A stretch of 64,000 nucleotides of DNA from Gammaproteobacteria bacterium (GTDB lineage: Bacteria > Pseudomonadota > Gammaproteobacteria > Steroidobacterales > Woeseiaceae). Positions 40,862 through 60,236 of this stretch are shown here, one piece after another. Every line of letters begins with the position of its first letter. Position 1 is the stretch's first letter. The translations under genes were made by a program, and so were the position numbers. The notes beneath the pieces were generated by a model that saw nothing but the letters and a program-made list of their open reading frames with translations, was not told the DNA's origin and made no database searches. The stretch covers positions 1 to 64,000 of the forward strand of contig JAOUHU010000004.1 of NCBI GenBank assembly GCA_029884455.1. Direction: 5' to 3'.

Positions 40862-41536
40862 TCAGGGTGCGCGGACGTATCGGGTGATGGTGTCGACAAT
40901 TTGTGCTCGCCGCAACTCGTGAGTCCTTGGATCGGTGAAGTCCTGATCAAATAAGAAGCCAAAGGTATGCTGGTTGGACACATTGAAAAACGCCAGCGCG
41001 CTGATGTTTTCGTGCAGTTTTACCGGCTCGAGGTCGGCCCGGAAAATACCTTCTTCCGTTCCGCGGCGACAAATATCCTCGATAATCTCGATCGCTTTGC
41101 GGTTCACCACTTTTAGTTCAGGCAGTTGCCTGATATGGAAACCCTTGAGGATATTCTCATTCATGATGACGCGAATGAAGTCCGCGTGCGAGGCATGATA
41201 GTCAACAGTGCCCTCTACCAACTTGCGCAGTGCCAGCATAGGCGGCAGGTCTTCCAGGTGAAAATTCGACTCCAGTTCGCGTAATTGCCGATAACTCTCT
41301 TTCAGCACCTCGCGATAAAGCCCCTCTTTGCTCTCAAAATAGTAGTACATCATGCGCTTGCTGGTGCGCGTCTTATCCGCGATACGATCTACGCGAGCAC
41401 CGCTCAGGCCATGCTGCGAAAACTCCTGCAGCGCCTCGGCCACAATATTTTCGCGAGTCGCGTCTGCATCCTTGGTTCTGCGCACATTTTTCTTGGCAGC
41501 AGCACCTGGCTTCTTTAATGCCTGGTTTGGGGTCAT
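40862..41536 (-). CDS. TetR-family transcriptional regulator
   Basis: This 224-residue repressor-type regulator has an N-terminal helix-turn-helix (about 22-68: DATRENIVAEALQEFSQHG, ARVDRIADKTRTSKRMMYYY) and a C-terminal ligand domain. It lies 105 bases after the quinate/shikimate dehydrogenase gene on the same strand, so it probably controls the island, perhaps in response to a pathway intermediate. The frame is open upstream of the ATG at 41536, but that extension lacks TetR character. Confidence 0.88.
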   Translation of the reverse strand: MTPNQALKKPGAAAKKNVRRTKDADATRENIVAEALQEFSQHGLSGARVDRIADKTRTSKRMMYYYFESKEGLYREVLKESYRQLRELESNFHLEDLPPMLALRKLVEGTVDYHASHADFIRVIMNENILKGFHIRQLPELKVVNRKAIEIIEDICRRGTEEGIFRADLEPVKLHENISALAFFNVSNQHTFGFLFDQDFTDPRTHELRRAQIVDTITRYVRAP

Positions 41537-41641
41537 TGCACCTGGTTCCTGGTCTCGGTTAGCGCAAAAAAAATAATCATCGTGTCCGAACAAACTTTCG
41601 CCTTGCCGGATATCCCACGCTAAGCATCGCTACTGTAACGA

Positions 41642-42562
41642 TTACACGAGCGTATTGAAATGGGCTTTCATTCGCTTTATGTCCGGCCGCACACCCGTAA
41701 AAATCTCGAATGCTCTTGCCGCCTGGAAGACCGCCATGCCACCGCCGTTCATGACCGTACATCCGGCATCGTTTGCGGCGCGAACCAGCTTGGTTTCAAT
41801 CGGGAAATAAACAATATCTGCGACCCAGAGGTCCGAGCGCAACAGACCCGGTTCAATCGGGTAGCCCGGACTCCTGGTCATGCCAACCGGAGTTGCATTG
41901 ATAACCCCATTCACTCTGCTGACTGAGTCAGCCGTATCGCGAGATGCAACGGCACGACCATTGCCGTAGACATCGGCCAGACTTTCGACGAGACCGCTTG
42001 CGCGTGACGGGTCGGTGTCGAAGATTTCAAGGCTGCAATTCGTCTTCCCCAGCAGCGCGTGCGATATGGCAGCGCCGGCGCCGCCCGCGCCCAGCAGCAA
42101 TATTTCATCGTGCTCGCAATGACTCGCTATCGCCTCATTGAAGCTTTCAAAAAAGCCCCAGGCATCCGTGTTGTGTCCGACTCGTCGACCATTGGAAAAA
42201 ACAACGGTATTCACGGCTCCAATTCGTGCCGCAGCATCGGATAATTCGTGCAAATGCTGCACAACCGCCTGTTTGCACGGGTACGTGATATTCAGGCCAT
42301 TGAACCCCATGCGCTCGGCCGCCAGCAACAGCTCGGGCAGGTCCCCAAGGTCGAGATTCAATTTATCGAGATCGATAAACTTGTACTGGTATCGCATGCC
42401 ATGCATGTCGCCTTCATGCTCATGCATGGCCGGCGACAATGAGCCGCCGATCCCTGCCCCGATAAGGCCCACGAGAATGGATGGATGCTTTCGAGTTCCC
42501 ATTGTCTCTATCTGTGCGTCCACGGTCTGCGCATTGTTTGCCACTCTAGTCTGTCGCGACAT
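41642..42562 (-). CDS. quinate/shikimate dehydrogenase, NAD-type
   Basis: This 306-residue AroE-fold enzyme would oxidise quinate or shikimate. GLIGAGIGGSLSPAMHEHEG binds substrate, NITYPCKQAV carries the catalytic Lys and GHNTDAWGF the catalytic Asp. After the glycine loop LLGAGGAGAA, the cofactor strand ends IFDTDPSRA. Biosynthetic AroE has basic NRTxxRA (NADP) here, whereas the acidic Asp matches catabolic NAD+-using quinate/shikimate dehydrogenases. With the dehydroquinase and QuiC1 nearby, it supports a catabolic role. The first 30 residues are unusual. The gene overlaps the TPP-enzyme gene by 17 bases. Confidence 0.88.
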   Translation of the reverse strand: MSRQTRVANNAQTVDAQIETMGTRKHPSILVGLIGAGIGGSLSPAMHEHEGDMHGMRYQYKFIDLDKLNLDLGDLPELLLAAERMGFNGLNITYPCKQAVVQHLHELSDAAARIGAVNTVVFSNGRRVGHNTDAWGFFESFNEAIASHCEHDEILLLGAGGAGAAISHALLGKTNCSLEIFDTDPSRASGLVESLADVYGNGRAVASRDTADSVSRVNGVINATPVGMTRSPGYPIEPGLLRSDLWVADIVYFPIETKLVRAANDAGCTVMNGGGMAVFQAARAFEIFTGVRPDIKRMKAHFNTLV

Positions 42563-44309
42563 GTGATACGTGACTGTCCGGGCTGTAAATATCCAGGATG
42601 TTCCAGTGGCCAGTCGTTGGAGTCGGGTTGTTCTTCATGGGCACGTCAAGCACGTACGGCGCGTTGGCAGCAATTGCTTTTGCCAGCGCCGGTGCAAGCT
42701 CGTCAGCAGAAGCAATTCGGACGCCCTCGCAGCCATAGGCGCGCGCGATTTCAGCATAATTCGGTCTTGGATTCGCCGGGTCGATGTCGAATACGGTTCC
42801 GTAGGTCATGCCGTAGTGAGCCTTTTGCAAGCCGGCAATTGTACCGTAGGCGTTATTGTTCATGACCAACCAGACGATCGGCAGTTTTCTTTCAACCGCG
42901 GTCGCGAGCAAGGATGGATTTTGGCCAAAGCCACCATCACCCACCAACGATATGACGACGCGGTCTGGCTCAGCCAGTCTCGCGCCGATCGCGGCGGGCG
43001 GACCGAATCCCATGGTGGCATAGCCACCAGGAGTCAACACACTGCCCGGCGTGTAGATTGGAAACTGCTGTCCCACGCCATTCTTGTTCCAACCGACATC
43101 CGTGGTAATAATCGCGTCGCGTGGCAATTGCTGTCGTACGTCGGCGAGTATTCTCTCCGGCATCATCGGGAATGCGGAGCTCGTGGCCATCGCCTTGTTT
43201 GCATCGATGAAAGTCTTGCGGAAATCGCTGATGCGCTTGCGCGTCTCGGGCCGTTTCGCGCCGTTCGGAAACCGTTCTCGCGCCACTTCCACAAGCGCCA
43301 CAAGTGCGGCTTTGACATCCGCAACCGCGCCAATTTCAGTGGGGAAGTTTCGGCCGATCTCGCTTGGCTCTATGTCGATGTGAACCAGCCTGGTCGGCGG
43401 AATATTAAACGTGTAGTCGCGATACCAGGAGCTGCAATCAGCTTCTTTGAAACGCGTACCGAGGCCGAGTATACAGTCGGCTTGCAGGCAGGCCTGGTTG
43501 ACCAGTTCCGTGCCCCAAAAACCCGTCATGCCAAGCACCAGCGGGTGGTCGTCCGGCAGTGCGCCCTTGCCCATCAGGCTATGGGCGACAGGAATATCGA
43601 AATGCTCCGCCAATGCGGCCAGTTCCGCCGACGCTCTTGCCAGCAGGACGCCGCCTCCAGCATAGATAACAGGCCGCTCTGCCTTGCCCAACAAGTCGAC
43701 GATTTCGATGGCCGTTTCACGATCCAGCGATGGCTTGCGCAATGACTTGGTGTTGGCCAACTGACGATCAAACAATTCTGCATCAACGCGGGCAGAAAAG
43801 ATGTCCATCGGAACGTTGACGAGCACAGGGCCCGGTTGCCCGCTCTCCGCCAGCGTAAACGCCTTCTCGATAATCTCCGGAAACAGATCAGCGCGGTCGA
43901 CGCGCCAGGCCCTTTTCACAAACGGCCGATAGATCTCGTATTGCGATGCATCCGCGTGCAGGTTGACCTCCTGATGCGGATGCTTGCCGTAATAATGGGT
44001 CGGAATGTCGCCCGCGATGACCACCATCGGTATGCAGTCGAGCGCAGCGTTTGCCACTCCGGTGGCACCGTTCGTCAACCCGGGGCTCAGGTGCGTCAAC
44101 AACACCGAGGCACGACCGGTGACGCGCGCGTATGCATCGGCCGAGTGCGCGGCACTCTGCTCGTGGCGGTAGTTGACGAACTCCACAGATGTGCCCGGCA
44201 TGGCGGACAGAACAGCGATGTTGGTGTGCCCGCAGAGTCCGAATACATATCGAGTGCCGCGCTGCTCCAGGTAGTTCACGAGCAATTCGGCGATCGTATT
44301 GTTGCTCAC
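42546..44309 (-). CDS. TPP-dependent 2-oxoacid decarboxylase/acetolactate-synthase-like enzyme
   Basis: This 587-residue three-domain TPP enzyme has the conserved Glu in YRHEQSAAHSADAYARVTG (about 47-65) and the Mg/TPP motif GDGGFGQNPS followed by VMNNNAYGTI (about 455-485). Its family includes acetolactate synthase, benzoylformate and sulfopyruvate decarboxylases; I cannot assign a substrate. The GTG start shares one base with the stop of the upstream acylating aldehyde dehydrogenase gene. That pairing suggests the TPP enzyme releases an aldehyde from a 2-oxoacid and the dehydrogenase converts it to an acyl-CoA. No small regulatory subunit (IlvN) is near. Confidence 0.85.
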   Translation of the reverse strand: MSNNTIAELLVNYLEQRGTRYVFGLCGHTNIAVLSAMPGTSVEFVNYRHEQSAAHSADAYARVTGRASVLLTHLSPGLTNGATGVANAALDCIPMVVIAGDIPTHYYGKHPHQEVNLHADASQYEIYRPFVKRAWRVDRADLFPEIIEKAFTLAESGQPGPVLVNVPMDIFSARVDAELFDRQLANTKSLRKPSLDRETAIEIVDLLGKAERPVIYAGGGVLLARASAELAALAEHFDIPVAHSLMGKGALPDDHPLVLGMTGFWGTELVNQACLQADCILGLGTRFKEADCSSWYRDYTFNIPPTRLVHIDIEPSEIGRNFPTEIGAVADVKAALVALVEVARERFPNGAKRPETRKRISDFRKTFIDANKAMATSSAFPMMPERILADVRQQLPRDAIITTDVGWNKNGVGQQFPIYTPGSVLTPGGYATMGFGPPAAIGARLAEPDRVVISLVGDGGFGQNPSLLATAVERKLPIVWLVMNNNAYGTIAGLQKAHYGMTYGTVFDIDPANPRPNYAEIARAYGCEGVRIASADELAPALAKAIAANAPYVLDVPMKNNPTPTTGHWNILDIYSPDSHVSHVATD

Positions 44310-45721
44310 TAATCTGTCTCCGTACCGTAAAAATCGCCGAAGAGTTCCTGCTCCGATGGCCGGTCCTCGGCGATCGGGCGACTCACCCAGGTGACGTTCA
44401 TGAAGTGCTTGAGGTGCACATTTTCGTTGGTAATGTTGCCACCCCAGATGCCACAGCCGAGGCTCGAGGTCATCGGCATGCCATTGTTGAACGCGCCTGC
44501 GTTGGCCTTGGATTGTGGTTGCCGGACCATCATGCGACTTACGGGCGCGACGCGCGCGAGCTGGTCGATATGATCATCATTGTGTGAATAGATGCCGCAG
44601 GAGTGGCCCTTGCCGCCAACCTCGTAAATCTGCCGCACCATCTGCAGCGCCTGTTCGAACCCGTGATAGCGATACACCGCAAGTAGCGTCGTCAATTTCT
44701 CCTTCGAGTAATTGTGTTCGGGGCCGATACGGTCATTCTCGACGATGACAAATGTGCGGTCATCCGGGATCTTCAGGCCTGCCAGTTCGCCAATGCGTTG
44801 TGGCGTGCAGGCTACGGAATCCGGCAGGCGATGACCGTGCACGTCCCAGATCACGCGCTCGATAGCATGCGCCTCAGACTTGTTGACGAGGTAGCCGCCT
44901 TCCTCCTGCAGTGCCGCCAGCATCCGATCGTATATGCGGTCGTCGATAAGCAAATTGCCATCCGCGGAGCATCCGGATCCGAAGTCCGAGGTCTTGGACA
45001 GACGCGTATTGCGCGCGGCGATTTCCGGTTCGGCCGTCTCATCGATCACCATGGTCGAGTTTCCGGCACCGACACCGTAAGCTGGCTTTCCGGAACTATA
45101 GGCCGCCCTCACCATCGGCTGCCCGCCCGTGGCAAACGTCAGATCGCACTGCGACATCAGGTACTGCGTCATCGGCACGTTCGGCGTGCGCACGCACTGG
45201 AAAACGTCCGCAGGTACACCTTCGCGCACCATGGTCTTGCGCATGACCTCGACCGTCGCCAGTGTCGTGTTCTTCGAGCGCGGATGTGGTGAAAAGATTA
45301 CTGCATCCAGGCACTTCAATGCATAAATCCCGGTAAATGGCGGCGTCAGTGCCGGGTTTGTCGTTGGCACCAGCGAGGCGATAACACCCGCAGGCTTGGC
45401 ATACTTGACGATGCCTTTCTCTGGAATTTCCTCAATAACGCCGATACTCGGCAGGCGCAGCGCATCGCGCAGGACACCCATGATCTTGAATCGCTTGCCC
45501 GGCCGCCCGGCACGATCCCCGAGACCACTTTCGTCGACGCCCATTTGTGCCAGCCGGGTGAACGTCGTCTCATTGGCCGTGGCCCAGCCGAGCGCCTGGC
45601 AAAGCCGATCGACGCGCCGCTGGTCAAACTCCCGGATAGCATCCATAGCAAGCCGCGCCCGACCTACCATGTCGTCCACGACTGCACGATCTTCAGCCTT
45701 CAGATCTTTATGTTCCGCCAT
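44309..45721 (-). CDS. CoA-acylating aldehyde dehydrogenase (AdhE/EutE/SauS-like)
   Basis: This 470-residue aldehyde dehydrogenase belongs to the acylating class: IASLVPTTNPALTPPF near residue 112, GVGAGNSTMVIDE, and the nucleophile in FGSGCSADGNLLID. It would oxidise an aldehyde to acyl-CoA with NAD(P)+. Related enzymes act on acetaldehyde, succinate semialdehyde or sulfoacetaldehyde. A start at 45721 (MAEHKDLKAEDRAV) fits the family; the upstream open frame looks non-coding. Downstream it is coupled to the TPP enzyme gene. Confidence 0.87.
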   Translation of the reverse strand: MAEHKDLKAEDRAVVDDMVGRARLAMDAIREFDQRRVDRLCQALGWATANETTFTRLAQMGVDESGLGDRAGRPGKRFKIMGVLRDALRLPSIGVIEEIPEKGIVKYAKPAGVIASLVPTTNPALTPPFTGIYALKCLDAVIFSPHPRSKNTTLATVEVMRKTMVREGVPADVFQCVRTPNVPMTQYLMSQCDLTFATGGQPMVRAAYSSGKPAYGVGAGNSTMVIDETAEPEIAARNTRLSKTSDFGSGCSADGNLLIDDRIYDRMLAALQEEGGYLVNKSEAHAIERVIWDVHGHRLPDSVACTPQRIGELAGLKIPDDRTFVIVENDRIGPEHNYSKEKLTTLLAVYRYHGFEQALQMVRQIYEVGGKGHSCGIYSHNDDHIDQLARVAPVSRMMVRQPQSKANAGAFNNGMPMTSSLGCGIWGGNITNENVHLKHFMNVTWVSRPIAEDRPSEQELFGDFYGTETD

Positions 45722-45825
45722 TTGCCTATCCGTCTGACAATCTTCGTGTACACCGGCCGGCCTCAGCTGCATGCCGCATTGCCTGTCATGCACCGAGATC
45801 GAATTTTGTTATTAACTACCCTGAT

Positions 45826-45831
45826 AGTATA
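45826..45831 (-). promoter_or_regulatory. possible -10 element (TATACT) upstream of the aldehyde dehydrogenase
   Basis: The 133-base gap between the aldehyde dehydrogenase and the sugar-isomerase-like gene is AT-rich around 45805-45840. On the minus strand it has TATACT at 45826-45831 but no good -35. ACTA and TAGT flank CCCTGA as a short inverted repeat. An internal promoter or operator for the TetR protein could sit here. Confidence 0.3.
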
Positions 45832-45854
45832 ATTTAATTTGGCGTCTGGTGCAG

Positions 45855-46805
45855 CTAGGGATCGTCAAGTTTCCACTGCAGCAATGGATCTGCTGTGACG
45901 GTCCCGCGCGGGGCATTACTTTTGTCCCCGCCATCCGCCGCCGGATAGCCATTACGCTGAAACAGCCGCAATGCTGATTCGCGGGCCATCGCCGCGCGCT
46001 CGCCCGGAGACGCGGTAAATGACAAGGTTTCGGCAGGCATCTCGATGCCAATGACGATTGGATATGGCAGATGCCGCATGATTCCCATCAGGTCAAGTTC
46101 ACCGTCTCCCGGCAGCAGGCGCTCCTCACGCGCTGCATAGATTAGTCCGCCAACGGTGGCGGGGCCTTTTGCCGGGGCGTCACAAAGCTGGATGTAGTGG
46201 AACCATGCCGCCGGCCATTCGTCCAGTTCCTCGAGCCGACAGCCGGCCCGCGCGAAATGCAAGGAGTCGATCAGGATGCCGACATTGTCGCGTCCGGACG
46301 CTTTTACCAGTGCGCCAGCACTCTTGAGATTGGCGGTTTGTATCCATGGAATGAATTCAACATCGCAGCTCAGGCCATAAGGTGCGGCCAGGTCGCACAG
46401 TCGTGAATAATTGTCAACAAGCCGACTGAACTCGGGGTCATCTGCCTGCGTCAGCAAATGCCTGGCACCAATTTCCGCCGCTGCCTGAATGCAATGTTCG
46501 AAGCTTCGAACATCGGTATCGGGGAGCAGTTTCAATAGCTCTACGTCGAGCACGCCCACGCCGGTTTCTGCCATGCGCGCCTTGGTACCGGCCATCGTCG
46601 CCTTGTCTTTCCAGAGTGGCCAGGCTGCGCCGCCGGCGGTAACGCCGATAAATCGCAGGCCGACGTAATCGTAATTTGCCTCGGCCGCCGCTATCACAAG
46701 TTCTGGTGGCGTCAGATCCAGCGCACTCAGGTGCGCCAGCGAGAATTGAATATTCCTGCTGGTCTGTGCAATCGCTGGCCGATCCTCGTCAAACCCTGGC
46801 TTCAT
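45855..46805 (-). CDS. sugar phosphate isomerase/epimerase-like TIM-barrel protein
   Basis: This 316-residue barrel protein is of the AP-endonuclease-2 / xylose-isomerase-like fold. Likely metal ligands are in CDVEFIPW (Glu), GILIDSLHFARAG (Asp, His) and IGIEMPAE (Glu). This fold includes sugar epimerases, hydroxypyruvate isomerase, inosose dehydratase and 3-dehydroshikimate dehydratase. Its 17-base overlap with the QuiC1 gene suggests a linked step, perhaps isomerising or dehydrating a quinate-derived compound. The substrate is not identified. Confidence 0.85.
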   Translation of the reverse strand: MKPGFDEDRPAIAQTSRNIQFSLAHLSALDLTPPELVIAAAEANYDYVGLRFIGVTAGGAAWPLWKDKATMAGTKARMAETGVGVLDVELLKLLPDTDVRSFEHCIQAAAEIGARHLLTQADDPEFSRLVDNYSRLCDLAAPYGLSCDVEFIPWIQTANLKSAGALVKASGRDNVGILIDSLHFARAGCRLEELDEWPAAWFHYIQLCDAPAKGPATVGGLIYAAREERLLPGDGELDLMGIMRHLPYPIVIGIEMPAETLSFTASPGERAAMARESALRLFQRNGYPAADGGDKSNAPRGTVTADPLLQWKLDDP

Positions 46806-48693
46806 CTGCCTGCCTCATGCCTCGCCGTTGCTGGTGCTTGGCCTGCGCCGCCATTCTCACCGGCGCGTTGCATTCGCCGTAGCCATCGTAGCCATTCTCG
46901 CGCTGCACCACTTCAAAAAAGAACCGATTATTGAAGAACTCGGTGTACACATGGAAGAAACGTCGCCCTTTTGGGTCGCAATCGTAAAGCACAGATGCCT
47001 TTTTCATTTTTTCGACCAGATCCATTGGCACGTCGCGATTCTCGGCCAGGTCCCGATAATAGTTCGCCGGTATGCTCAGCAGTGGCATACCGCGCTTACG
47101 CATTTCGGCTACAGCGGCAAATATGTCACTGGTTTCGAAAGCGATTTGGTTGATCCCCGCACCACCAAAGCTTGACAGCGACAACGCGACCACCGTCTTT
47201 GCGTTGTCAGAATAGGTCAGCGGCATCCTGAGTCGATTGTCGGCGTCGTGCAAAGCGCGACTGCGTACCGTCCCGTGCGGATCGGAAAGGTCCAGTGAAT
47301 TGTCTGCCGTTAGACCGAGCAGTGCGCGATAAAACAAGACCCAGGAATCAAATTGATTTTCGGGAACCGCACGCACCAGGTGATCAACCCTGTCCAGAAT
47401 TGATGCTGGCGCATCGCTGTCATTGTCCATGACAAAATCCGTGTGCGGATCGTAACGCGGGTCGAGCAGGTGTAGAAGACTGCCGTCCGGAGCCCGCACT
47501 GCCGGCATCATGTACTCCTGTGGTCCGACGCGCTCTTCATATCGTTTATAGGCATAGAGATCGGCGCGGGCGAGCAATGCCAGCGGGTCTGACAGGCGCA
47601 ACCCGATCGCGCAAATCGTGGTGCCATGCAGGTGATGATAATAGTGCGCGAAGGTATCGCTGCCGGCATTCAGCACGATCAGCACCCCGCCTTGCTGGTA
47701 GAGAACCACGTCCTTGCTGCGGTGAGTGCCTGCTCGCCTGAAACCCAGGTTACCAAGCCAGGTCTCGAGTTCCTGCTGGCTTTCCGAGTCAACCGCGAAT
47801 TCGATAAAACCGATTGACTCTTCCTGCTGCTGGGCGGGCGGATCGCTGCCTGCAAATGCAGACCGGCTGGTTTTGCGGCCGAGGCGGAAAAGCTGTTCTT
47901 CGACAAAGGTTAGCGATCGGTAGCCATCCAGTGCGGCGGAGCGTACCGGTGCGGCACGCACGACATCATTGCGAACGTCCAGCGAAAACGGCCCCGCGTA
48001 GCCGCTGTCGAGAACGCAGGCAGCAAAACCGGACACGTCCAGTGCGCCCTGCCCCGGGAAACACCGGAAGTGTCGCCCAAGCGTTTCCAGGTCAATGGCA
48101 AGCGCCGGCGCATCGGCAAGCTGTACCATGAATATTCGCTCACCCGGAATGGTGGCCAACAGCGCCGGATCGTCCCCCTTCGCAAGTACTTCGACGCTGT
48201 CCAGTATCAGCCCGAGATTTGCATGCCCGGCAGCGGCCAGGATTTTCCAGGCCTGCAGATAACCGGTGACAAACCTGGCGGTTGCGATCGCCTCATAGCC
48301 GATGCGAATCCCCTGTACCTGCGCGCGATCCGCCAGCGCCGCCAGCTGCTCGGCTGCGATGTCCGGATTATCGAGAGCCTGGCCACCCGCGTTTGACGGG
48401 ATACGCAACAAGGTAGCACCCAACTCTCCCATCAACTCGAATTTGCGTTCTGCCCTCGCCAGCGATTCCGAGAAAGTCCGGGCGGAAACACCCTCGACAT
48501 CGGTGATCGAGTGGAATACGGAAATCGTCAAGCCGACTTCGTCAAGTAGCTGCTTTATCTCCCGCGGCTGCATTTCGCTGAACGCGAGTTCCGCCTCCGT
48601 AAGCTCGACCGAATCGAATCGCGCAGCCGCTATCGCATACAGTTTCTCCTGGAGCCCTCCACCCAGTGCGACGGCTGCGATGGACCGGCGCAT
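46789..48693 (-). CDS. 3-dehydroshikimate dehydratase, QuiC1-type fusion (TIM barrel + VOC)
   Basis: This 634-residue protein fuses an N-terminal TIM-barrel dehydratase (about 1-270: SVELTEAELAFSE, RIGYEAIATARF, LGLILDSVEVL) to a C-terminal HPPD-like VOC region (about 290-610). This matches QuiC1 enzymes that convert 3-dehydroshikimate to protocatechuate. In the VOC part the first metal His (RVDHLVRAV) and the Glu (FFFEVVQR) are present, but the second expected His reads Gln (GINQIAFET). The C-terminal domain may therefore not bind iron as in HPPD. It heads the minus-strand operon with the sugar-isomerase-like gene. Confidence 0.9.
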   Translation of the reverse strand: MRRSIAAVALGGGLQEKLYAIAAARFDSVELTEAELAFSEMQPREIKQLLDEVGLTISVFHSITDVEGVSARTFSESLARAERKFELMGELGATLLRIPSNAGGQALDNPDIAAEQLAALADRAQVQGIRIGYEAIATARFVTGYLQAWKILAAAGHANLGLILDSVEVLAKGDDPALLATIPGERIFMVQLADAPALAIDLETLGRHFRCFPGQGALDVSGFAACVLDSGYAGPFSLDVRNDVVRAAPVRSAALDGYRSLTFVEEQLFRLGRKTSRSAFAGSDPPAQQQEESIGFIEFAVDSESQQELETWLGNLGFRRAGTHRSKDVVLYQQGGVLIVLNAGSDTFAHYYHHLHGTTICAIGLRLSDPLALLARADLYAYKRYEERVGPQEYMMPAVRAPDGSLLHLLDPRYDPHTDFVMDNDSDAPASILDRVDHLVRAVPENQFDSWVLFYRALLGLTADNSLDLSDPHGTVRSRALHDADNRLRMPLTYSDNAKTVVALSLSSFGGAGINQIAFETSDIFAAVAEMRKRGMPLLSIPANYYRDLAENRDVPMDLVEKMKKASVLYDCDPKGRRFFHVYTEFFNNRFFFEVVQRENGYDGYGECNAPVRMAAQAKHQQRRGMRQADEARV

Positions 48694-48696
48694 CGG

Positions 48697-50220
48697 CTAG
48701 TCGGCCCGCAGCGTCAGCCGTCCATACCAGACACCCTGGAAGCCGGCCCTGGAATCGCCCCACACCAGGTGCAGATTCTCGTTGTCCATCGCGAGATCCT
48801 GGATGTCATCGCCGAACAGGCCTGCATTCCGATACTTGTCGAAGGCCGGTGATCGCGCGTGGCTGACTCGATGTGAAGCCCCGAAACTCTGCCCGCCATC
48901 CAGCGATACAGCCGCCCATATGTCATAGCTGTCATCGTCGTAGACCGCGCGCCAGATCAGACCCAGCACCCCGTCACGAGAAAACTCAAAGGCCGGTTTC
49001 GTAAAACGAACTGCCTCCGGTGTATGGCCGGCTGGCACAAATTCGCCCCACGTGGTACCAAAATCTTCACTGATCGCGACGCTGTAAGCTGCGGCCTCGT
49101 ATTTAAGCAGTGCAATCCGGCCAGTCCTGCTCGGATCAATTGCGATATTCACAAAGCCGCCGTTGCTCGGGCGCTCACCCGGCGCCGGTGGCGTAACGAT
49201 GAACTGGTCCAGAACCCGGTAATCGAAAGACTCGCCCTGGTTACGGCTGATACCCAGCACTACGCAGGGACAAGCCGCACTCGGAGCGCTGGCCGCAACA
49301 TAGCCTACCGCGACAATTCCATGCCCGGCGGCCGCGCTGATGCCGCGGCTGCTTTGCGGGTATTCGGGCGAATCCCAGGCGTAGACGTTTCCGAAAGACT
49401 TGCCACCGTCCGTCGAGGCCGTGATGTACGCCTGACTGCGGCGCTCGCCAGGTGGCGCCCCGCTCGTTGTCCAGCCGCCTCCGGACGTCCCGTAAATCAC
49501 ACCGGTCGAGTCATCGATTTGTGTAAACGGACGGTCCCAGGGTGAATGCGTGGCGACCCGGTCGGGCGATCCGGGCGGGAAGCCGCCCGACACAGGCGCC
49601 AGTCCGGGCGCGAAGCGATCGAGCGCAAAGTCGCTGATCATCGGCACCACAGGTCCCCAGGTCTTGCCCTTGTCAGCCGACATCATGAACGCCGACATCC
49701 CGAAATGGTCCGGGCTGCTATGCGTTTCCCGTGGTTCACAGCCGGCTATGAATACACCGTCGGCTGTTACGTCAGCAAAAGCGTCCGGGCAACGTGTAAA
49801 TGTCCCGGACAATATCGGTAATTCAGAGACCTCCCAGCTTATGCCGCCATCGTTGGTCACGGCCAGCCAGTTGATGGTCGACCCGGGGACGAGGTGGTAG
49901 TCGCCGGTACTGCCACGCGTCGCCGGGCGCCCGTGTAACTGTTGAATATTGCCCATCGCCACGATAATCATGTTGTCCGGGTTGGTCGGATCGACCGCAA
50001 TCATGGGCTCACCCGCACCACGGTTCGCATTACCGAGCACTAGGTATTCCTCGCTGACGGATTCCTGTGAATCCGGCATGGCGTTGCTTTCGGCTTGCAT
50101 AGCCGCGGCGGGCGCTGCCGCGGGTGCCTGCTCGCGTGCGCAGGCCGCGACTAATGCCAGCAGGACACAACCTGCCGGGAGGGCCGAGCACTTCAGCAAC
50201 CGCGAACCTTCGATGCTCAT
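48697..50220 (-). CDS. sialidase-like/BNR-repeat secreted lipoprotein
   Basis: This 507-residue predicted lipoprotein (lipobox LLALVAAC, about residue 28) has BNR/sialidase-type repeats forming a beta-propeller (NDGGISWEVS, SADKGKTWGP, STDGGKSFGN, SEDFGTTWGE, SLDGGQSFGA). The catalytic sialidase residues are not clear, so glycosidase activity is not established; many such proteins simply bind glycans. GGGGAG is six bases upstream of the ATG at 50220. It lies 3 bases upstream of the QuiC1 start on the same strand, so it may be co-transcribed with the island. Confidence 0.82.
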   Translation of the reverse strand: MSIEGSRLLKCSALPAGCVLLALVAACAREQAPAAAPAAAMQAESNAMPDSQESVSEEYLVLGNANRGAGEPMIAVDPTNPDNMIIVAMGNIQQLHGRPATRGSTGDYHLVPGSTINWLAVTNDGGISWEVSELPILSGTFTRCPDAFADVTADGVFIAGCEPRETHSSPDHFGMSAFMMSADKGKTWGPVVPMISDFALDRFAPGLAPVSGGFPPGSPDRVATHSPWDRPFTQIDDSTGVIYGTSGGGWTTSGAPPGERRSQAYITASTDGGKSFGNVYAWDSPEYPQSSRGISAAAGHGIVAVGYVAASAPSAACPCVVLGISRNQGESFDYRVLDQFIVTPPAPGERPSNGGFVNIAIDPSRTGRIALLKYEAAAYSVAISEDFGTTWGEFVPAGHTPEAVRFTKPAFEFSRDGVLGLIWRAVYDDDSYDIWAAVSLDGGQSFGASHRVSHARSPAFDKYRNAGLFGDDIQDLAMDNENLHLVWGDSRAGFQGVWYGRLTLRAD

Positions 50221-50385
50221 CTGCGACTCCCCGCCGCGTTTGCGGCGCCATTGATTATCCGGCTCGAACGGATCGGAAAAAGATTGTACTATCGAGTTAG
50301 TGAATTTAACAGTCTGCACCGGCAACGACGTGCCACTGCTGGTTGTGGCAGCGGCATCCCGGCAAGAACGACCAAGGGTCTTTGT

Positions 50386-51207
50386 ATGAGCGAATATGTC
50401 CGTAATCCCTGGTGGCACACCGGGATTATCAATATGGAGCCCGGCGTCATCGAGTTCTTTGGCTATCCGATCCAGGACTTGATTGGCAAGCTGAGCTTTT
50501 CACAGATGATCTTCTTGATGCTGCGTGCAGAAATACCGACCAGCAGCCAGGCGGCGCTGCTTGACGCGGCGTTGATGTCGGGCGTCGACCATGGTCCACA
50601 GGCGCCGAGCATTGCCATCGCGCGGATGGCGATTACCTGTGGTGTCGGCCTCAATAATGCAATGGCGTCCGCCCTGAATACTCTCGGCGATGTGCATGGC
50701 GGCGCCGGGGAACAATCCGTGGAGTTGTTTCAGAACATTGCATCTTCAGTCGACACCGGCACAGGCCTCGAGCAAGCGGTTGCAAGCGAAGTTGCGAAAT
50801 TTGTTGCCGAGCGCGGCAAGTACATTCCGGGATTCGGGCATCGATTTCACGACGTTGATCCGCGTGCACCGCGATTACTGGAAATCGTCCGGCAGGCGGC
50901 GCGCGACGGTGCAATCTCGGGGCGATACCGGGAAATTGCCTTGGCCGTAGAGGCATCGCTGGCCGACGTAGCGCGCGGCAAGCGTGTACCGATGAATATC
51001 GACGGCGCAACAGCCGTTGTGTACGCGGAACTTGGCTTTCCGGCACCGTTGGCAAGAGGCCTGTTCTGCTTGTCGCGCGCGGTCGGGATTCTGGCGCACG
51101 CCTGGGAGCAACAATGCCAGGGTGGACGCAACAAAGGCCCAATTCCGCGTAACGAATTGGCAAGCTACACCGGGCCAGCAAAGAGAACTGTGCCAGAAGA
51201 TATCTAG
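50386..51207 (+). CDS. citrate-synthase-fold protein, citryl-CoA lyase-like
   Basis: This 273-residue protein is a short member of the citrate synthase superfamily. The catalytic triad is visible: GDVHGGAGEQ (His), IPGFGHRFHDVDPRA (His) and MNIDGATAVV (Asp). Short stand-alone members are usually annotated citryl-CoA lyase; they cleave or form a carbon-carbon bond involving an acyl-CoA. It is divergent from the sialidase-like gene and sits upstream of the dehydroquinase pair. It could take up the acyl-CoA formed by the island's acylating aldehyde dehydrogenase. The ATG at 50386 has AAGGGT upstream. Confidence 0.82.
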   Translation: MSEYVRNPWWHTGIINMEPGVIEFFGYPIQDLIGKLSFSQMIFLMLRAEIPTSSQAALLDAALMSGVDHGPQAPSIAIARMAITCGVGLNNAMASALNTLGDVHGGAGEQSVELFQNIASSVDTGTGLEQAVASEVAKFVAERGKYIPGFGHRFHDVDPRAPRLLEIVRQAARDGAISGRYREIALAVEASLADVARGKRVPMNIDGATAVVYAELGFPAPLARGLFCLSRAVGILAHAWEQQCQGGRNKGPIPRNELASYTGPAKRTVPEDI

Positions 51208-51231
51208 GAAATGCGCTTGACCGGCGTCGGC

Positions 51232-51260
51232 TTGACAGTGTTGGCAGCTAGCTGAAATAC
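51232..51260 (+). promoter_or_regulatory. possible promoter for the dehydroquinase pair
   Basis: A perfect TTGACA (51232-51237) is followed after 17 bases by AAATAC (51255-51260), a weak -10. It lies in the 161-base gap before the dehydroquinase-like genes. Confidence 0.4.
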
Positions 51261-51368
51261 TCGGGCGCAAGCTGACGGCGCGCAGTCGCCGTGTCCAATC
51301 GACCGTACCAATACACACAATATTAAGTGATCTCCCTTGCATCACAGCATGGCGCGGCGGAACATGAT

Positions 51369-51845
51369 TTGAAGAACACGGTTTTGATTCTGAATGGTCC
51401 CGGCCTAGGCGACCTTGGCAACTATAACAGCAGGCTGTACGGCAGGATGACGCTCGCGAGCCTGGCGTCAGACTGTCAGGCCTTATGCGACGCGTTGGGA
51501 TTAGAACTCGACTTCCGCCAGACGGATAATCAAGACGAGATGTTTCGCTGGATAGCGAAAGACAGCGAAAAATTTGACGGCGTCATTATCAATCCGATTG
51601 GCCACTCGCCTGCGATGATGCAGATGTTCGAGCTGTACCGCTCCGCGATCCAGATGATAGCAAGCCTCAAGAAGCCCGTGATTGAGGTTCACATCACAAA
51701 TATTTATCGGCACGTTGACGAGGTTACACAACCGCTGCATGAGCCTGCCGGTGAGATGGGTTTCATCTGCGGCTTCGGCAAACTAGGTTACCTGCTGGCA
51801 ATTCGTGCGCTGGCACGCAAGTTCGGCGCGGCCAGGGAAACCTGA
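51369..51845 (+). CDS. divergent type II 3-dehydroquinase-like protein
   Basis: This 158-residue protein has the type II dehydroquinase fold (VLILNGPGLGDLG, VEVHITNIY, GLKL-type end), but several catalytic positions have changed. NGPN reads NGPG; the lid-loop Arg-Glu (RRE) reads YN; and the THTS motif reads SPAM, so the active-site His is lost. The loop Tyr, the first catalytic-pocket Asn (IINPIG) and the His of EVHITN are kept. It is unlikely to be a normal dehydroquinase. A TTG at 51369 gives the usual family start; a GTG at 51327 would add 14 residues. The canonical enzyme follows 30 bases later. Confidence 0.85.
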   Translation: MKNTVLILNGPGLGDLGNYNSRLYGRMTLASLASDCQALCDALGLELDFRQTDNQDEMFRWIAKDSEKFDGVIINPIGHSPAMMQMFELYRSAIQMIASLKKPVIEVHITNIYRHVDEVTQPLHEPAGEMGFICGFGKLGYLLAIRALARKFGAARET

Positions 51846-51875
51846 GCAGCATGAGCACACAGAGAGCTTTCAATT

Positions 51876-52340
51876 GTGGCTAAGAAAATCTTCGTGATTA
51901 ATGGTCCGAACCTGAATCTGCTGGGCAGGAGAGAACCTGAGATCTATGGCCATGAGTCGCTCGAAGATATTGCCGTACTCTGCCGCAAAGTCGGCAACGC
52001 ACACAATTTGCTTATCGATTTTCGACAGTCGAATCATGAAGGCCAGATCGTTGACTGGATCCAGGAGGCGATTGGCAATGTTGATGCAATAGTCATCAAT
52101 GCAGCCGCGTACACGCATACCTCGGTTGCGATTCATGACGCGCTGCGCGCCTACAACGGTTACAAGGTAGAGCTGCATATTTCAAACCCGCACCTGCGCG
52201 AATCCTTCCGGCACACTTCTTATGTGTCGACCGCGGTTGATGCGATTGTCGCCGGTCTCGGGACCATGGCTTACGAGTTGGTCATCGAACTGGTCCACGA
52301 CGTCTTGCGCAATTCCACAAAGCCGCGTTCGGCCTTGTAA
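51876..52340 (+). CDS. aroQ: type II 3-dehydroquinate dehydratase
   Basis: This 154-residue enzyme converts 3-dehydroquinate to 3-dehydroshikimate. All expected residues are present: NGPNLNLLGRREPEIYG (Asn, lid Arg, Tyr), INAAAYTHTSVA (Asn, His) and ELHISNPHLRESFRH (His, Ser/Asn, Arg). The enzyme is a dodecamer in known cases. It supplies the middle step between the quinate dehydrogenase and QuiC1. It might also serve aromatic biosynthesis; its place beside catabolic genes favours degradation. The GTG at 51876 begins MAKKIFVINGPN. Confidence 0.93.
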   Translation: MAKKIFVINGPNLNLLGRREPEIYGHESLEDIAVLCRKVGNAHNLLIDFRQSNHEGQIVDWIQEAIGNVDAIVINAAAYTHTSVAIHDALRAYNGYKVELHISNPHLRESFRHTSYVSTAVDAIVAGLGTMAYELVIELVHDVLRNSTKPRSAL

Positions 52341-57101: not shown

Positions 57102-57428
57102 TCACAACATGTCGACGGCAGCAATGTACGCACGCGAGCAGGCGCGAACGATGTTCAAATACTTCGTCGTCCGTTCTGCCCCATACAGCATCGGATTTTT
57201 CTCGGGCGGATATTTCTCGTGCACATATTTTGTGCGTGCCAGCAAGTTCATGTTGGTGTTGGGATGCGACTGCATGACCGACTCAACGTTGCGCTGGATG
57301 CCGATATCATGGATGTGCTCGTAACCACCGATGAACGCATTGATATTTGTGAAATGATTGCCGGCTGTGATCTGCATGCCATCTTCGGCGTCAATTTCCC
57401 GTTGTTGTCTATTGGCAAAAGGGCTCAA
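57102..57428 (-). pseudogene. C-terminal fragment of a B3-like metallo-beta-lactamase-fold protein
   Basis: The frame encodes a C-terminal ~100 residues with ESVMQSHPNTN, NPMLYGAERTTKYLNIV and ACSRAYIAA. This aligns with the last ~70 residues of the intact MBL-fold protein at 61330-62409 (DVMLGNH, NPYVLGREKTVNYMNVA, ACSAAGMA). The zinc-binding N-terminal part (HxHxDH) is missing and the frame runs into the end of the ThuA-like gene. It is probably a remnant left after replacement or deletion. A translated truncated protein cannot be excluded because it lies in an operon. Confidence 0.65.
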
Positions 57429-58392
57429 GCCCGATCACCGATTTGATACCGCCGAGCAGCATGGTCTTGAATTCGGCGCCGCCCTCAAAGTCCGGGTTGG
57501 TCCAGATGGCCGGATCGTGGCCAAGCGTTGTTACCCACGACTTGCCGCCGTCGTAATACTGACACCAGGTGACCGGATGGAAGGAGCCATGGCCCGGATG
57601 TCCGCCGAGCACCGCCGGCAGCTGACCCGGTCGCGGCGGACGCGGTTCCCGTGGCGGCGGCACCTGCATGGAGTTCTCATCAACCGTTGCCAGGAAACGG
57701 ACCTGTGTCGGGAAAGGAATCAGGTTGTACCACTCGTCCATGAAACTGAAACGCTGCGGCAGATCACGGGTCGATGCATCGCTGCTATTGACCAGCACGA
57801 CATCGGCGACACGATGCGGCCCATGATCGAAGAAATTTGCGCCACCGAGCAGACCTTCGTAGTACGGCCAGTTGTATTGCGTGCCGAAAGCATTGTGCAC
57901 GCCGACAAATCCGCCACCACGTCGCATGTATTGACGCAGCGCGGTCTTCTCGCCGTCATTGAGATTGTCCCGCGAAGTGCTAAAAAAGATGATGGCGTGA
58001 TAGCTGTTCAGGCCGCCAAGAACAGCACCGTCTTCCGTGTAGTGCATGGTGATGTTTGCCGCGGCCAGCAACTTGCCGAGTTCTCGCTGCACAACGTTGT
58101 CTTCGGCAAGTTCGGGATTCAGTCCCGCCGCCAGCGGCGCTCCCAGATGCCCATGACGAGGACCGGCCGTCTTTGTAAACAGCAGCACGCGATACTCGTC
58201 ACTGTCGGGACGCGCCCAGTCGTGGTAGCACGCCGGGTCGGTACCCCTGCACACGCCGTAGTCCATCGCACCCAGCAGGTCGTTTACCGAACCACCCGGA
58301 TTGCCGGTCTGTGCCTGGGCGACGCACGCCACGATGCTGCTCAACAGAATACCGGTGGCAAGAATTTCTTTCGCAAGATTCGTCATACTCAT
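57409..58392 (-). CDS. secreted ThuA-domain protein
   Basis: This 327-residue protein has a signal peptide (cleavage near CVAQAQ) and a ThuA (glutamine-amidotransferase-like) domain: EYRVLLFTKTAGPRHGH near the start, YHAIIFFSTSRDNLN, then GGGFVGVHNAFG. ThuA proteins act in trehalose/glycoside use in some bacteria, but secreted members are uncharacterised. The ATG at 58392 overlaps the PQQ-dehydrogenase stop (ATGA). The final codons overlap the MBL remnant. Confidence 0.87.
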   Translation of the reverse strand: MSMTNLAKEILATGILLSSIVACVAQAQTGNPGGSVNDLLGAMDYGVCRGTDPACYHDWARPDSDEYRVLLFTKTAGPRHGHLGAPLAAGLNPELAEDNVVQRELGKLLAAANITMHYTEDGAVLGGLNSYHAIIFFSTSRDNLNDGEKTALRQYMRRGGGFVGVHNAFGTQYNWPYYEGLLGGANFFDHGPHRVADVVLVNSSDASTRDLPQRFSFMDEWYNLIPFPTQVRFLATVDENSMQVPPPREPRPPRPGQLPAVLGGHPGHGSFHPVTWCQYYDGGKSWVTTLGHDPAIWTNPDFEGGAEFKTMLLGGIKSVIGLEPFCQ

Positions 58393-60236
58393 TTACCTGA
58401 AAGTCGGTAGGCAATTACCTCGTCGCTCGTTTGATCGCGCATGAAGTATCCGCCGCCGTTGCCGCCAATGACGACGTATTGCTTGCCATCGCGGCCCATG
58501 TAGGTGCTTGGTGTGCCTTGTGACGGCGCCGGCAGACGATCCCGCCAAAGCTCCTTGCCATTGCGTGCGTCAAATGCCCGAAAATAACCGTCAACGGTCG
58601 CACCAATGAAGACAAGATCACCTGCAGTTGTTATCAATCCACCAACACTTGGCGTGCCCGTTGGTGGCACGCCCTGTGCGCTGAGTTCCTCGAATTCGCC
58701 CAGCGGCACGCGCCAGGCGATGTCGCCCGTATTGGCATCAACCGCGACCAATTCACCCCAGGGCGGCTCGCTACAACTCCACATCTTGTCGTTATTCCAG
58801 AAGCGCCGCTGTTCCGGCGTCACCTTGCGCATGCCGGATTCGGTCAACTCGAGATGACCCCACTGGCCCGCGGTATGGACATTGGCAATGATCAGTGCCA
58901 ACGACGGATTGAAGGCCGCACCCCACCAATTGCTGCCGCCCTGGGCACCCGGGAACACGATAATGTCCTGGTCCAGTTTCCAGGGCTGGTAAGGCACCGC
59001 ATCGCTGAGCTTGTAGTCATCCCAGAGCCGCGCGCAAAAAGCCTCGTGCTCAGGCGTTACCTTTGCCAGATTTGCACGGGTCATCGTGTTACGCACCAGT
59101 GGCTCTGGTTTGATCGGGAACGGTTGCGTCGGCGACGTCCATTCGCCCGGTACTGTCGTTTGAGGAACCGGTCGCTCCTCCATGCCGAAAACCGGTTCGC
59201 CGGTATCGCGATCAAAAATGAACATCAGGCCCATCTTGTTCATCTGCACCACTGCCGGAATGGTCTTGCCTTCGCGCACCACGTCGATGAGCGTCGGCGC
59301 CGCCGCAATGTCGTAGTCCCAGATATCGTGGTGCACCAGTTGCTGGAACCATTTCATCTTGCCTGTCAGGGCATCAAGTGCCACCAGCGAGTCGCTGTAG
59401 AGATTGTTGCCGTGATGTTCCCCGCCCCAGTAATCGTTGCCGACCTTCTCGACCGGCACAAACACGGTGCCGCGTACCGCATCGACCGTGAACAGGCCCC
59501 AGATGCTCGGCGTAAAATCCTTGTCCGCGCTGCCGTCGAGCCAGCTTATGCGGTTGATGTCACCTGGCTGGGCTTTGAGGTAGAACGTCCAGATCAACTT
59601 GCCGGACACAATGTCCCAGCCCTTGACCGTTTCCCCGTGTCCCTGTTCCACGCCGCCTTGGGTGATCAGTACATTTTCATAAAAGGCAGCCGGCGACGTG
59701 GGTCGGAGGCCCGGGATCACGCCATCATCACCAAAACCTGGCACCAGCCGCCCGCTCGCCGCATCGATGGCCGCCAGACCTTTTGATGTCGTGGAGTAGA
59801 TTCGCGGCCTGATCTGGTCGCTACCCGGCCAGTACATCGGCCCGCGCAGCGCCGTGCCGGCCGCACCGCCGCCACTCAGGAACCTGGACCGGGCGTCGGC
59901 TGCGGGCAGCGCGGGCGGTTCGTACTTCCAGATTTGCTCGCCGGTGACAGCATCCAGGGCGAATACGCCGTTCGGCGCGCTGAAATACATTACGCTGTCG
60001 ATCACCATCGGTGCGCCGGCGAACCGGCCTGACTGGGTATGAAACGTCCAGGCTCGTTCCAGCCCGGTGACGTTCGAAACATTGATTTGTGCCAGCGTTG
60101 AATAGCGCGTGGCACCGGCGTCGCCCTGGTGGTGCAGCCAGTCCCTGCCCGCCGTTTCCTGCTCCTGCGCAACAACACTGGCAGTGAACAACGCCACTAT
60201 CAATACCAGCCAGGACAACGGATACCGCTTGTTCAT
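58389..60236 (-). CDS. periplasmic PQQ-dependent dehydrogenase
   Basis: This 615-residue quinoprotein has a signal peptide (cleavage near SVVAQE) and a beta-propeller with PQQ-domain repeats: HHQGDAGATRYSTLAQIN, VFALDAVTGEQIWKYEPP, LVALDALTGKMKWF, and GTPSVGGLITTAGDLVFIGA near the end. It resembles the periplasmic part of glucose/quinate-type dehydrogenases, but lacks the N-terminal five-helix membrane domain and any CxxCH haem motif. It would pass electrons to a separate acceptor. The substrate is unknown; polyols, sugars or quinate are possible. It heads the minus-strand operon. Confidence 0.88.
   Translation of the reverse strand: MNKRYPLSWLVLIVALFTASVVAQEQETAGRDWLHHQGDAGATRYSTLAQINVSNVTGLERAWTFHTQSGRFAGAPMVIDSVMYFSAPNGVFALDAVTGEQIWKYEPPALPAADARSRFLSGGGAAGTALRGPMYWPGSDQIRPRIYSTTSKGLAAIDAASGRLVPGFGDDGVIPGLRPTSPAAFYENVLITQGGVEQGHGETVKGWDIVSGKLIWTFYLKAQPGDINRISWLDGSADKDFTPSIWGLFTVDAVRGTVFVPVEKVGNDYWGGEHHGNNLYSDSLVALDALTGKMKWFQQLVHHDIWDYDIAAAPTLIDVVREGKTIPAVVQMNKMGLMFIFDRDTGEPVFGMEERPVPQTTVPGEWTSPTQPFPIKPEPLVRNTMTRANLAKVTPEHEAFCARLWDDYKLSDAVPYQPWKLDQDIIVFPGAQGGSNWWGAAFNPSLALIIANVHTAGQWGHLELTESGMRKVTPEQRRFWNNDKMWSCSEPPWGELVAVDANTGDIAWRVPLGEFEELSAQGVPPTGTPSVGGLITTAGDLVFIGATVDGYFRAFDARNGKELWRDRLPAPSQGTPSTYMGRDGKQYVVIGGNGGGYFMRDQTSDEVIAYRLSGK

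Follow-up and report, generated by a model that had tools for sequence, protein, structure and literature searches.

A gene island for quinate and shikimate in a Woeseiaceae genome that may encode a route without aromatic intermediates or oxygen

Why should a gene island for quinate and shikimate also encode a thiamine diphosphate (ThDP) enzyme, a CoA-acylating aldehyde dehydrogenase (ALDH), a sugar-isomerase-like barrel and a citryl-CoA-lyase-like protein? The question is raised by a stretch of 64,000 nucleotides (contig JAOUHU010000004.1, positions 1 to 64,000, assembly GCA_029884455.1), hereafter the window, from a gammaproteobacterium of the family Woeseiaceae whose genome assembly comprises 3.33 Mb in 151 contigs and is 88.9% complete. 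The textbook route of bacterial quinate and shikimate catabolism passes through protocatechuate, and its ring opening needs oxygen. Fermenting bacteria were reportedly found by Brune and Schink in the early 1990s to consume quinate without aromatic intermediates, and we know of no gene set for such bacteria. An earlier note on this DNA read the island as a complete route to protocatechuate to which the four extra genes had been added as a module. We propose instead a route for quinate and shikimate, encoded by the island, that would form no aromatic intermediate, need no oxygen and end in acetyl-CoA and 2-oxoglutarate. We assign this reading a probability of about 0.55, and all of its substrates and products are predicted from sequence.

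The genes named by the earlier note lie where it placed them and belong to the families it gave, including a canonical type II dehydroquinase. The tight overlaps that it reported are real: 17 bases between the quinate/shikimate dehydrogenase and the ThDP enzyme, 17 between the barrel and the QuiC1 homologue, and 1 between the ThDP enzyme and the ALDH. Its gene list left out a second AroQ-like gene, and a BNR-repeat protein is added here. Read from right to left, the leftward run consists of the BNR-repeat protein, the QuiC1 homologue, the barrel, the acylating ALDH, the ThDP enzyme, the dehydrogenase and a TetR regulator; the divergent rightward run consists of the citryl-CoA-lyase-like gene, the divergent AroQ-like gene and AroQ. 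The features of the island are as follows (L numbers designate individual loci).

40862..41593, minus strand: TetR-family regulator (49.5% identity to the TetR protein of the Castellaniella cluster locus L078)
41642..42562, minus strand: quinate/shikimate dehydrogenase of the AroE family (SDH), assigned from PF08501 and NCBIfam scores
42546..44309, minus strand: ThDP enzyme with His28 in a CGHTN motif (PF02776, PF00205, PF02775)
44309..45793, minus strand: CoA-acylating aldehyde dehydrogenase of the SauS/AdhE/SucD type (NF047625, 449.4 bits; solved relatives; 73% identity to the L011 protein)
45855..46805, minus strand: TIM barrel of the AP_endonuc_2 family, sugar-isomerase-like, with the QuiC1 active-site signature E-D-H-Q-D-R-R-E
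46789..48693, minus strand: QuiC1 homologue, a barrel plus an HPPD/VOC-like half, with the active site altered in both halves (H168E and E239D; VOC triad HQE)
48697..50418, minus strand: BNR-repeat protein with a lipobox-like N terminus (by eye), probably exported
50251..51207, plus strand: citryl-CoA-lyase-like protein (open reading frame; homology from about 50389; NF004864, 440.8 bits)
51327..51845, plus strand: divergent AroQ-like protein, AroQ2 (PF01220, 82.9 bits)
51876..52340, plus strand: type II 3-dehydroquinate dehydratase, AroQ (NF003806, 210.6 bits, cut-off 171)

A plasmid search with the lyase led to an Azoarcus operon containing a split QuiC, a CoA-transferase, the lyase, a ThDP enzyme, a shikimate dehydrogenase and AroD; its ThDP enzyme aligns with that of the window at 67% identity. 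A pattern scan starting from these two ThDP enzymes over one genome per species (84,980 species) yielded at least 566 confirmed relatives, and the best 80 of these, a set biased towards close relatives and Rhodobacterales, constitute the loci compared here. They come from Rhodobacterales and other Alphaproteobacteria, Aromatoleum, Castellaniella, Thiobacillus, a Steroidobacteraceae metagenome-assembled genome (MAG), Desulfofustis, Desulfobulbaceae and other deltaproteobacterial MAGs, SAR324, Bacillota and Acidimicrobiia. Genes within about 10 kb of the ThDP gene were counted with hidden Markov models (counts from BLAST clustering were slightly lower). The acylating ALDH was found in 71 of the 80 loci, the barrel in 70, a QuiC homologue in 57, a TRAP permease in 53 and a Gfo/Idh-family gene in 49. 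A lyase was present in 68 loci, of the citrate-synthase type in 49 and of the 3-hydroxy-3-methylglutaryl-CoA (HMG-CoA) lyase type in 19. The set of barrel, ThDP enzyme, ALDH or CoA-transferase, and lyase was complete in 62. SDH, AroQ and AroD were found in 34, 14 and 8 loci, respectively, with at least one of the three in 42 loci, or in 69 when QuiC homologues are counted as well.

As controls, we used 19 other ThDP loci from seven of the cluster genomes (20 stretches minus L132, a second cluster copy). Citrate-synthase-type lyase, barrel, QuiC, SDH, AroQ, AroD and Gfo/Idh genes were all absent from these 19 loci, which contained one weak ALDH match (52 bits), one weak HMG-CoA lyase match (57 bits) and one weak HpcH match. 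Conservation in the clusters is far above that in the controls. These results support the earlier suggestion that the ThDP enzyme, acylating ALDH, barrel and lyase form one widespread module tied to quinate/shikimate genes. A standard operon from quinate to protocatechuate with four unrelated passenger genes would explain SDH, AroQ and the QuiC1 homologue of the island as well as the LigAB-like genes found elsewhere in the genome. We rejected this explanation as scarcely credible, because the four extra genes are the conserved core of 80 relatives; in addition, most cluster QuiC homologues lack the dehydratase site. Many of the operons also include uptake transporters (TRAP or tricarboxylate-type) and regulators of the IclR, GntR, TetR or LysR families, as is typical of catabolism. 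This composition argues against a biosynthetic module in which the ThDP enzyme would join 2-oxoacids by carboligation, and the acylating ALDH and lyase would naturally run towards acetyl-CoA. The acetolactate synthase-like families are the nearest named relatives of the ThDP enzyme and point the other way, but we consider carboligation very improbable.

The exchange of lyases between clusters is the strongest clue to the substrate. The citrate-synthase type and the HMG-CoA lyase type are mutually exclusive: they occur apart in 49 and 19 loci and together in none of the 80, while 12 loci carry neither, seven of them on stretches shorter than 17 kb. The lyase of the window exceeds the cut-off of the citryl-CoA lyase equivalog NF004864 (440.8 bits against 261) and has citryl-CoA lyase 6hxp as its nearest solved chain; this family name does not prove which substrate the window protein would use. 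A representative of the other type scores 295.9 with the HMG-CoA lyase subfamily model, above the cut-off of 246. When mapped on the ThDP tree, where 70 of 82 rows bear a lyase label (that of L132 assigned by hand), the swap requires at least four changes, three of which are forced by well-supported branches. Citryl-CoA lyase and HMG-CoA lyase have unrelated folds, and both cleave a tertiary 3-hydroxyacyl-CoA into acetyl-CoA and a keto acid. Since two families with this common chemistry occupy a single slot, the substrate would have kept the tertiary C1 hydroxyl of quinate, which would also fix the end that bears the thioester. The branch would consequently depart at the level of 3-dehydroquinate, before that hydroxyl is lost, and the proposed cluster substrate, homocitryl-CoA, differs from those of the two named lyases. 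An HpaI-like aldolase was evaluated as a third lyase and not counted as a substitute: it occurs in 8 of the 80 loci, 7 of which also have the citrate-synthase type, and its representative is a relative of 4-hydroxy-2-oxoheptanedioate aldolase that scores under the cut-off.

What would generate the aldehyde upstream of this lyase? The ThDP enzyme of the window matched 53 family models, and the best 25 (acetolactate synthase-like and others) all scored under their cut-offs. All 81 cluster enzymes carry a histidine at position 28 of cyclohexane-1,2-dione hydrolase (CDH), 80 of them within the motif CGHTN and one within TGHTV. Among 24 other ThDP rows, this histidine is present in two enzymes with the IolD motif and in a second enzyme of the source genome (TPP2), and in none of the remaining 21. 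In a separate alignment it was shared by a true CDH (L095, Aromatoleum 22Lin), nine of nine IolD and all cluster enzymes aligned, and by none of six other ThDP enzymes. We take IolD and CDH to be the known ring-dione hydrolases. The cluster enzymes resemble CDH in this position and, as proposed here, in ThDP-dependent cleavage of a cyclic 1,2-dione; they differ from it in overall sequence (about 31% identity) and in the residue N484, which is replaced by Ile both in the aligned cluster enzymes and in the nine IolD. In a review, coupling of pyruvate with ketones is reported for CDH altered at residues H28 and N484 (PMC12247030). The pattern of His28 suggests that the cluster enzyme is a hydrolase of a cyclic 1,2-dione rather than the plain 2-oxoacid decarboxylase with which the earlier note began its outline; the remainder of that outline, from aldehyde to acyl-CoA to carbon-carbon cleavage, fits our proposal. 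A plain decarboxylase is made unlikely both by His28 and by the cluster genomes that have neither PF00775 nor LigA. Aromatoleum diolicum 22Lin, the strain known for cyclohexane-1,2-dione hydrolase, possesses CDH as well as a cluster enzyme (L086) 68% identical to that of the window. At two other loci (L035 and L064), the cluster ThDP gene has a ThDP enzyme with the IolD motif FGHGN at most about 10 kb away, which makes cyclitol and hydroaromatic genes neighbours.

A decarboxylase is nevertheless central to one alternative, which we retained because the source genome has LigAB-like genes and LigK was not detected in it. In this scheme the module would serve the lower branch of protocatechuate 4,5-cleavage: the ThDP enzyme would decarboxylate 4-carboxy-4-hydroxy-2-oxoadipate to citrate semialdehyde, which would give citryl-CoA and then acetyl-CoA and oxaloacetate, replacing the LigK aldolase. 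The atoms balance, ThDP decarboxylases are common in the ThDP superfamily, and the window lyase passes the citryl-CoA lyase model. On another contig (C135; L009/L137), the source genome carries a LigB-family gene (PF02900, 268 bits) whose neighbours are presumably LigA-, LigC-, GalD-, LigI- and CoA-transferase-like genes (by eye), and a second, weaker LigB-family match lies on a small contig (L010). The earlier statement that ring-cleavage genes are missing is thus correct for the island, where none was seen, and does not extend to the genome. The LigK model TIGR02798 found no match in the assembly, of which about 11% may be missing, and no PF00775 dioxygenase was found in the source genome. 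Near the LigB-family gene, at L137:4427-6220, is a gene whose product by eye resembles a [NiFe] hydrogenase large subunit.

The distribution of dioxygenases does not favour this alternative. PF00775 and LigA were sought in 35 cluster genomes, many of them MAGs, as the two families that the search covered among dioxygenases. PF00775, which also covers catechol dioxygenases, was present in 15 and LigA in 5, for a union of 17, and neither was found in the other 18 of the 35, including those of Priestia abyssalis, Aeribacillus composti and Rhodobacter aestuarii. Queries with LigA, LigB, GalD and LigI found nothing in the 80 cluster loci (PcaGH was not sought within them), and a LigC query gave weak matches to Gfo/Idh-family proteins in 23. 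The alternative also gives no special role to the conserved QuiC-like barrel, and His28, a feature of ring-dione hydrolases that 21 other paralogues lack, speaks against it. Furthermore, in clusters where a CoA-transferase takes the place of the acylating ALDH, citryl-CoA would be formed from free citrate, which is catabolically pointless. We consider a citryl-CoA branch unlikely and return to the ring-dione hydrolase as the preferred assignment.

If the ThDP enzyme opens a ring dione, a dehydratase should precede it, and the barrel is the candidate. Its nearest solved folds are Lmo2234, IolI and QuiC1. In an alignment of 66 barrels including that of the window, the QuiC1 residues E134, D165, D194, R207, R210 and E239 are kept in 65, D194 and R207 having been picked from the alignment by the analyst. 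The barrel of the window is identical to QuiC1 at all eight scored positions. Six of these eight are on the published QuiC1 active-site list (PMC7442255), from which Arg64, Leu97, Leu136 and Ser206 were left unscored. The earlier description as an unspecified isomerase gives way to that of a protein carrying most QuiC1 dehydratase residues.

The fused QuiC homologue presents the reverse picture. That of the window is not a clean QuiC1-type dehydratase as first described: it scores 655.3 bits against NF042435, failing the cut-off of 1200, and relative to Pseudomonas putida QuiC1 it keeps E134, D165, Q191 and R210 and carries H168E and E239D. Across 58 aligned rows (among them the window, the 5hmq reference and four with the VOC half alone or nearly so), E/D/E(D) is kept in only 8, whereas the HHE triad of the HPPD-like half is intact in 50. 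Variants of this triad are HQE in the window and L011, HDE in L002 and L086, and HCE in L087 and L088. To judge from these residues, most QuiC homologues of the clusters no longer have the dehydratase metal site. As the barrel keeps the QuiC1 residues and the fused protein loses them, in most clusters the intact dehydratase-like protein would be the stand-alone barrel, and what is conserved of QuiC would be its VOC half. The latter half may be an independent enzyme; in print, too, the function of the C-terminal half of QuiC1 is given as unknown (PMC7442255). The loss of the dehydratase site, together with the 18 of 35 genomes without PF00775 and LigA, speaks against the view of the module as an addition to a complete protocatechuate route. 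The clusters share with the QuiC1/QsuB route from quinate to protocatechuate a dehydrogenase, AroQ and a QuiC1-like active site in the barrel. They differ in that the fused QuiC homologue is altered in the window and its barrel half degenerate in most clusters, and in that the proposed route would need neither an aromatic intermediate nor a dioxygenase.

The step that would form the CoA ester is assigned to the ALDH. It scores below the cut-off of 600 of the SauS model NF047625, the acylating chains 5j78, 8cei and AdhE rank first among its solved relatives, and a Cys aligned with 5j78 is presumably catalytic. It resembles the sulfoacetaldehyde dehydrogenase SauS and the acylating succinate-semialdehyde dehydrogenase as a member of the CoA-acylating aldehyde dehydrogenase family, and differs in falling below the SauS cut-off and in its predicted substrate, homocitrate semialdehyde. 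A CoA-transferase or a non-acylating dehydrogenase is found in 8 of the 9 loci without the acylating ALDH and in 11 of the 71 with it, which is suggestive of substitution and no more. Priestia abyssalis offers a separate full example, with a CoA-transferase, an HMG-CoA-lyase-like gene and an aldehyde dehydrogenase downstream (by eye). This second cluster copy (L132, L136) comprises an ADH-sized open reading frame, the ThDP enzyme, the barrel and AroQ ahead of those three genes, again named by eye, and is interrupted by spore-germination-like genes (by eye).

The first step falls to SDH. The earlier note called it an NAD-type quinate/shikimate dehydrogenase; the AroE family holds, and the NAD-specific model NF010631 does not (232.3 bits against 515). 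It passes the shikimate dehydrogenase subfamily model NF009201 well (401 bits, cut-off 235), and its specificity for quinate is not settled by the sequence.

Assembled in order, the predicted route would run as follows. SDH would oxidise quinate to 3-dehydroquinate; shikimate would enter as 3-dehydroshikimate, formed by SDH and converted to 3-dehydroquinate by AroQ acting in reverse. From 3-dehydroquinate, the barrel would eliminate the C3 hydroxyl together with the proton at C4, which would yield the cyclic 1,2-dione 1-hydroxy-3,4-dioxocyclohexane-1-carboxylate; elimination of an alpha-hydrogen and a beta-hydroxyl is the chemistry of QuiC1 and IolE. The ThDP enzyme would add to the former ketone carbon and hydrolyse the bond between the carbonyls, as in IolD and CDH, to yield homocitrate semialdehyde, OHC-CH2-C(OH)(COOH)-CH2CH2-COOH. 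Only this polarity of ring opening would place the thioester where the lyases act. The acylating ALDH, whose place is taken in a few relatives by a CoA-transferase, a non-acylating dehydrogenase or both, would then produce homocitryl-CoA, which the citryl-CoA-lyase-like protein (HMG-CoA-lyase-like in other lineages) would split into acetyl-CoA and 2-oxoglutarate by retro-Claisen cleavage. The computed formulae balance at every proposed step. Each step would have a gene, and none would use O2 or ATP.

The closest precedent is myo-inositol catabolism by IolG, IolE and IolD, in which a ring alcohol is oxidised, a TIM barrel dehydrates the product to a cyclohexane-1,2-dione and a ThDP hydrolase opens the ring. 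Both systems would use a ThDP ring-opening enzyme with the same histidine. The cluster substrate, in contrast, would be a carboxylate, the ThDP enzyme belongs to a clade apart from IolD, and the aldehyde, which enters a kinase/aldolase branch in inositol catabolism, would be converted here to an acyl-CoA and cleaved by a lyase.

Several observations weigh against this proposal. On the ThDP tree the cluster enzymes form a clade of their own with TPP2 as sister, grouping neither with IolD nor with CDH (whose long branch makes its placement unsure), and sequence searches place them nearer acetolactate synthase and glyoxylate carboligase, so the shared His28 could be coincidental. Because the cluster clade lies outside IolD and apart from CDH, the residue would be either old or convergent. 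Cluster enzymes of seven genomes score 227 to 287 bits with the IolD model TIGR04377 and fail its cut-off of 715. Among the 21 paralogues counted as lacking His28, L128 and L134 have a histidine in the adjacent alignment column, and L016 matches weakly (89 bits). H168 is kept in 12 of the 66 barrels (Tyr in 53) and Q191 in 9 (His in 56). On the tree, one change accounts for the ALDH exchange, so kinship inflates its Fisher value, and independent pairs gave nothing. The control loci include one CoA-transferase, two non-acylating ALDH and TRAP permeases in 7 of 19, which means that these parts are not specific to the clusters. SDH narrowly passes the ordinary shikimate dehydrogenase equivalog NF001319 (254.5 bits, cut-off 252). 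Two of five deltaproteobacterial genomes have a dioxygenase-family match (LigA in G078, PF00775 in G082), and LigAB-like genes without a detected LigK in the source genome suit the citryl-CoA alternative. Finally, the proposed route explains neither the role of AroQ2 nor that of the QuiC VOC half.

The link to quinate itself is also incomplete: 38 of the 80 loci have no SDH, AroQ or AroD in the flank covered, and 11 also have no QuiC homologue in the stretch covered, several of these being short contigs. The earlier note had named separation of the extra genes from quinate genes as evidence against a functional tie. Such separation is seen for the lyase family, whose relatives at 57-63% identity adjoin CoA-transferases in annotated plasmid loci that have no shikimate genes, and for the module in part, through those 11 loci. 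The same enzymatic logic might then serve another cyclitol carboxylate or an algal hydroaromatic acid as native substrate, with SDH and AroQ recruited in some lineages. The Gfo/Idh genes in 49 of the 80 loci, which resemble inositol dehydrogenases at low score and accompany TRAP or tricarboxylate-type transporters, agree with this and likewise count against quinate, as do the 38 loci just mentioned. The presence of SDH, AroQ or AroD in 42 of the 80 loci and in none of the 19 controls argues for quinate and shikimate, as do the QuiC1 residues R207 and R210 kept in the barrel and the tertiary alcohol demanded by the lyase pattern, which quinate possesses. We regard a different native substrate as unlikely. 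Beside the Gfo/Idh genes lies a family of 219-residue proteins for which Pfam and NCBIfam give no match, and no QuiC homologue was found in the five deltaproteobacterial loci L031, L054, L063, L067 and L075, four of which are stretches shorter than 17 kb.

Extending the quinate/shikimate proposal beyond the window, we see an even chance that it describes a second general route for these abundant plant acids via a ThDP dione hydrolase and homocitryl-CoA, operating without O2 across Pseudomonadota, deltaproteobacteria (e.g., Desulfofustis), Bacillota, Actinomycetota and SAR324, and that selection in most clusters acts on the HPPD/VOC-like half of QuiC rather than on the dehydratase half. Among the matches listed from 5.39 million open-access papers, which leave subscription papers mostly outside, none described the pathway, and the word homocitryl-CoA was absent from all the papers searched. 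The operon would constitute a complete, testable gene set for O2-free use of quinate, with homocitryl-CoA as a predicted new metabolite. It would provide a function for a large set of genes labelled "acetolactate synthase", "citryl-CoA lyase" and "sugar isomerase", and a handle on the C-terminal half of QuiC1. If the route is real, marine and anaerobic genomes could be read for the use of plant and algal hydroaromatic acids.

The island is rare in its own lineage. At 1e-150 none of 59 further genomes examined as relatives (36 from the same genus) contained the ThDP enzyme, and at 1e-180 only the source genome itself matched among 369 genomes of the class. This rarity suggests that the island is a sporadic trait and was probably acquired.

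The remaining genes of the island and its surroundings can be described briefly. AroQ2 scores 96.7 bits against a cut-off of 130 and passes none of the five NCBIfam AroQ models listed; its RREPEIYG loop no longer has the Arg, while Tyr, Asn and His are retained (by eye). Its relatives in the plasmid collection are all below 60% identity (42% for the best listed), and the best in the cluster loci reaches 31% (L062). A protein 52% identical to the BNR-repeat protein adjoins the ThDP gene in L080, whose cluster mate is in L079. Two further genes lie beyond the island in the window.

57409..58392, minus strand: ThuA-domain protein (ThuA-family genes are also near the ThDP gene in L060, L079 and L080, the last two being the same cluster)
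58389..60236, minus strand: pyrroloquinoline quinone (PQQ)-dependent dehydrogenase of the glucose/quinate/shikimate kind (TIGR03074, 395.7 bits, below 832.65; 39% identity to the L079 protein)

The second is a possible candidate for a periplasmic quinate oxidase. The pair of ThuA and PQQ dehydrogenase genes (57409-60236) recurs near the cluster in L079/L080, and open reading frames resembling the PQQ dehydrogenase of those loci are found on the same contig as the window at L104:2663-4636, L104:16228-18309 and L105:10599-12851.

A second, divergent module is located on the same contig about 7.7-16.2 kb beyond the end of the window (L104:7742-16207). It encodes TPP2, which is 45% identical to the ThDP enzyme of the window and has the CGHTN motif, together with a citryl-CoA-lyase-like protein, a family III CoA-transferase, an acylating ALDH (61% identity to that of the Desulfobulbaceae locus L054), an AraC regulator and an SSF sodium symporter. 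No barrel, SDH or AroQ was found in L104 or L105, and a different cyclic dione is a possible substrate of this module. Further along, about 24 kb beyond the end of the window (L105:4094-5446), an MFS transporter with 64.5% identity to one inside the L079 cluster is a candidate uptake gene.

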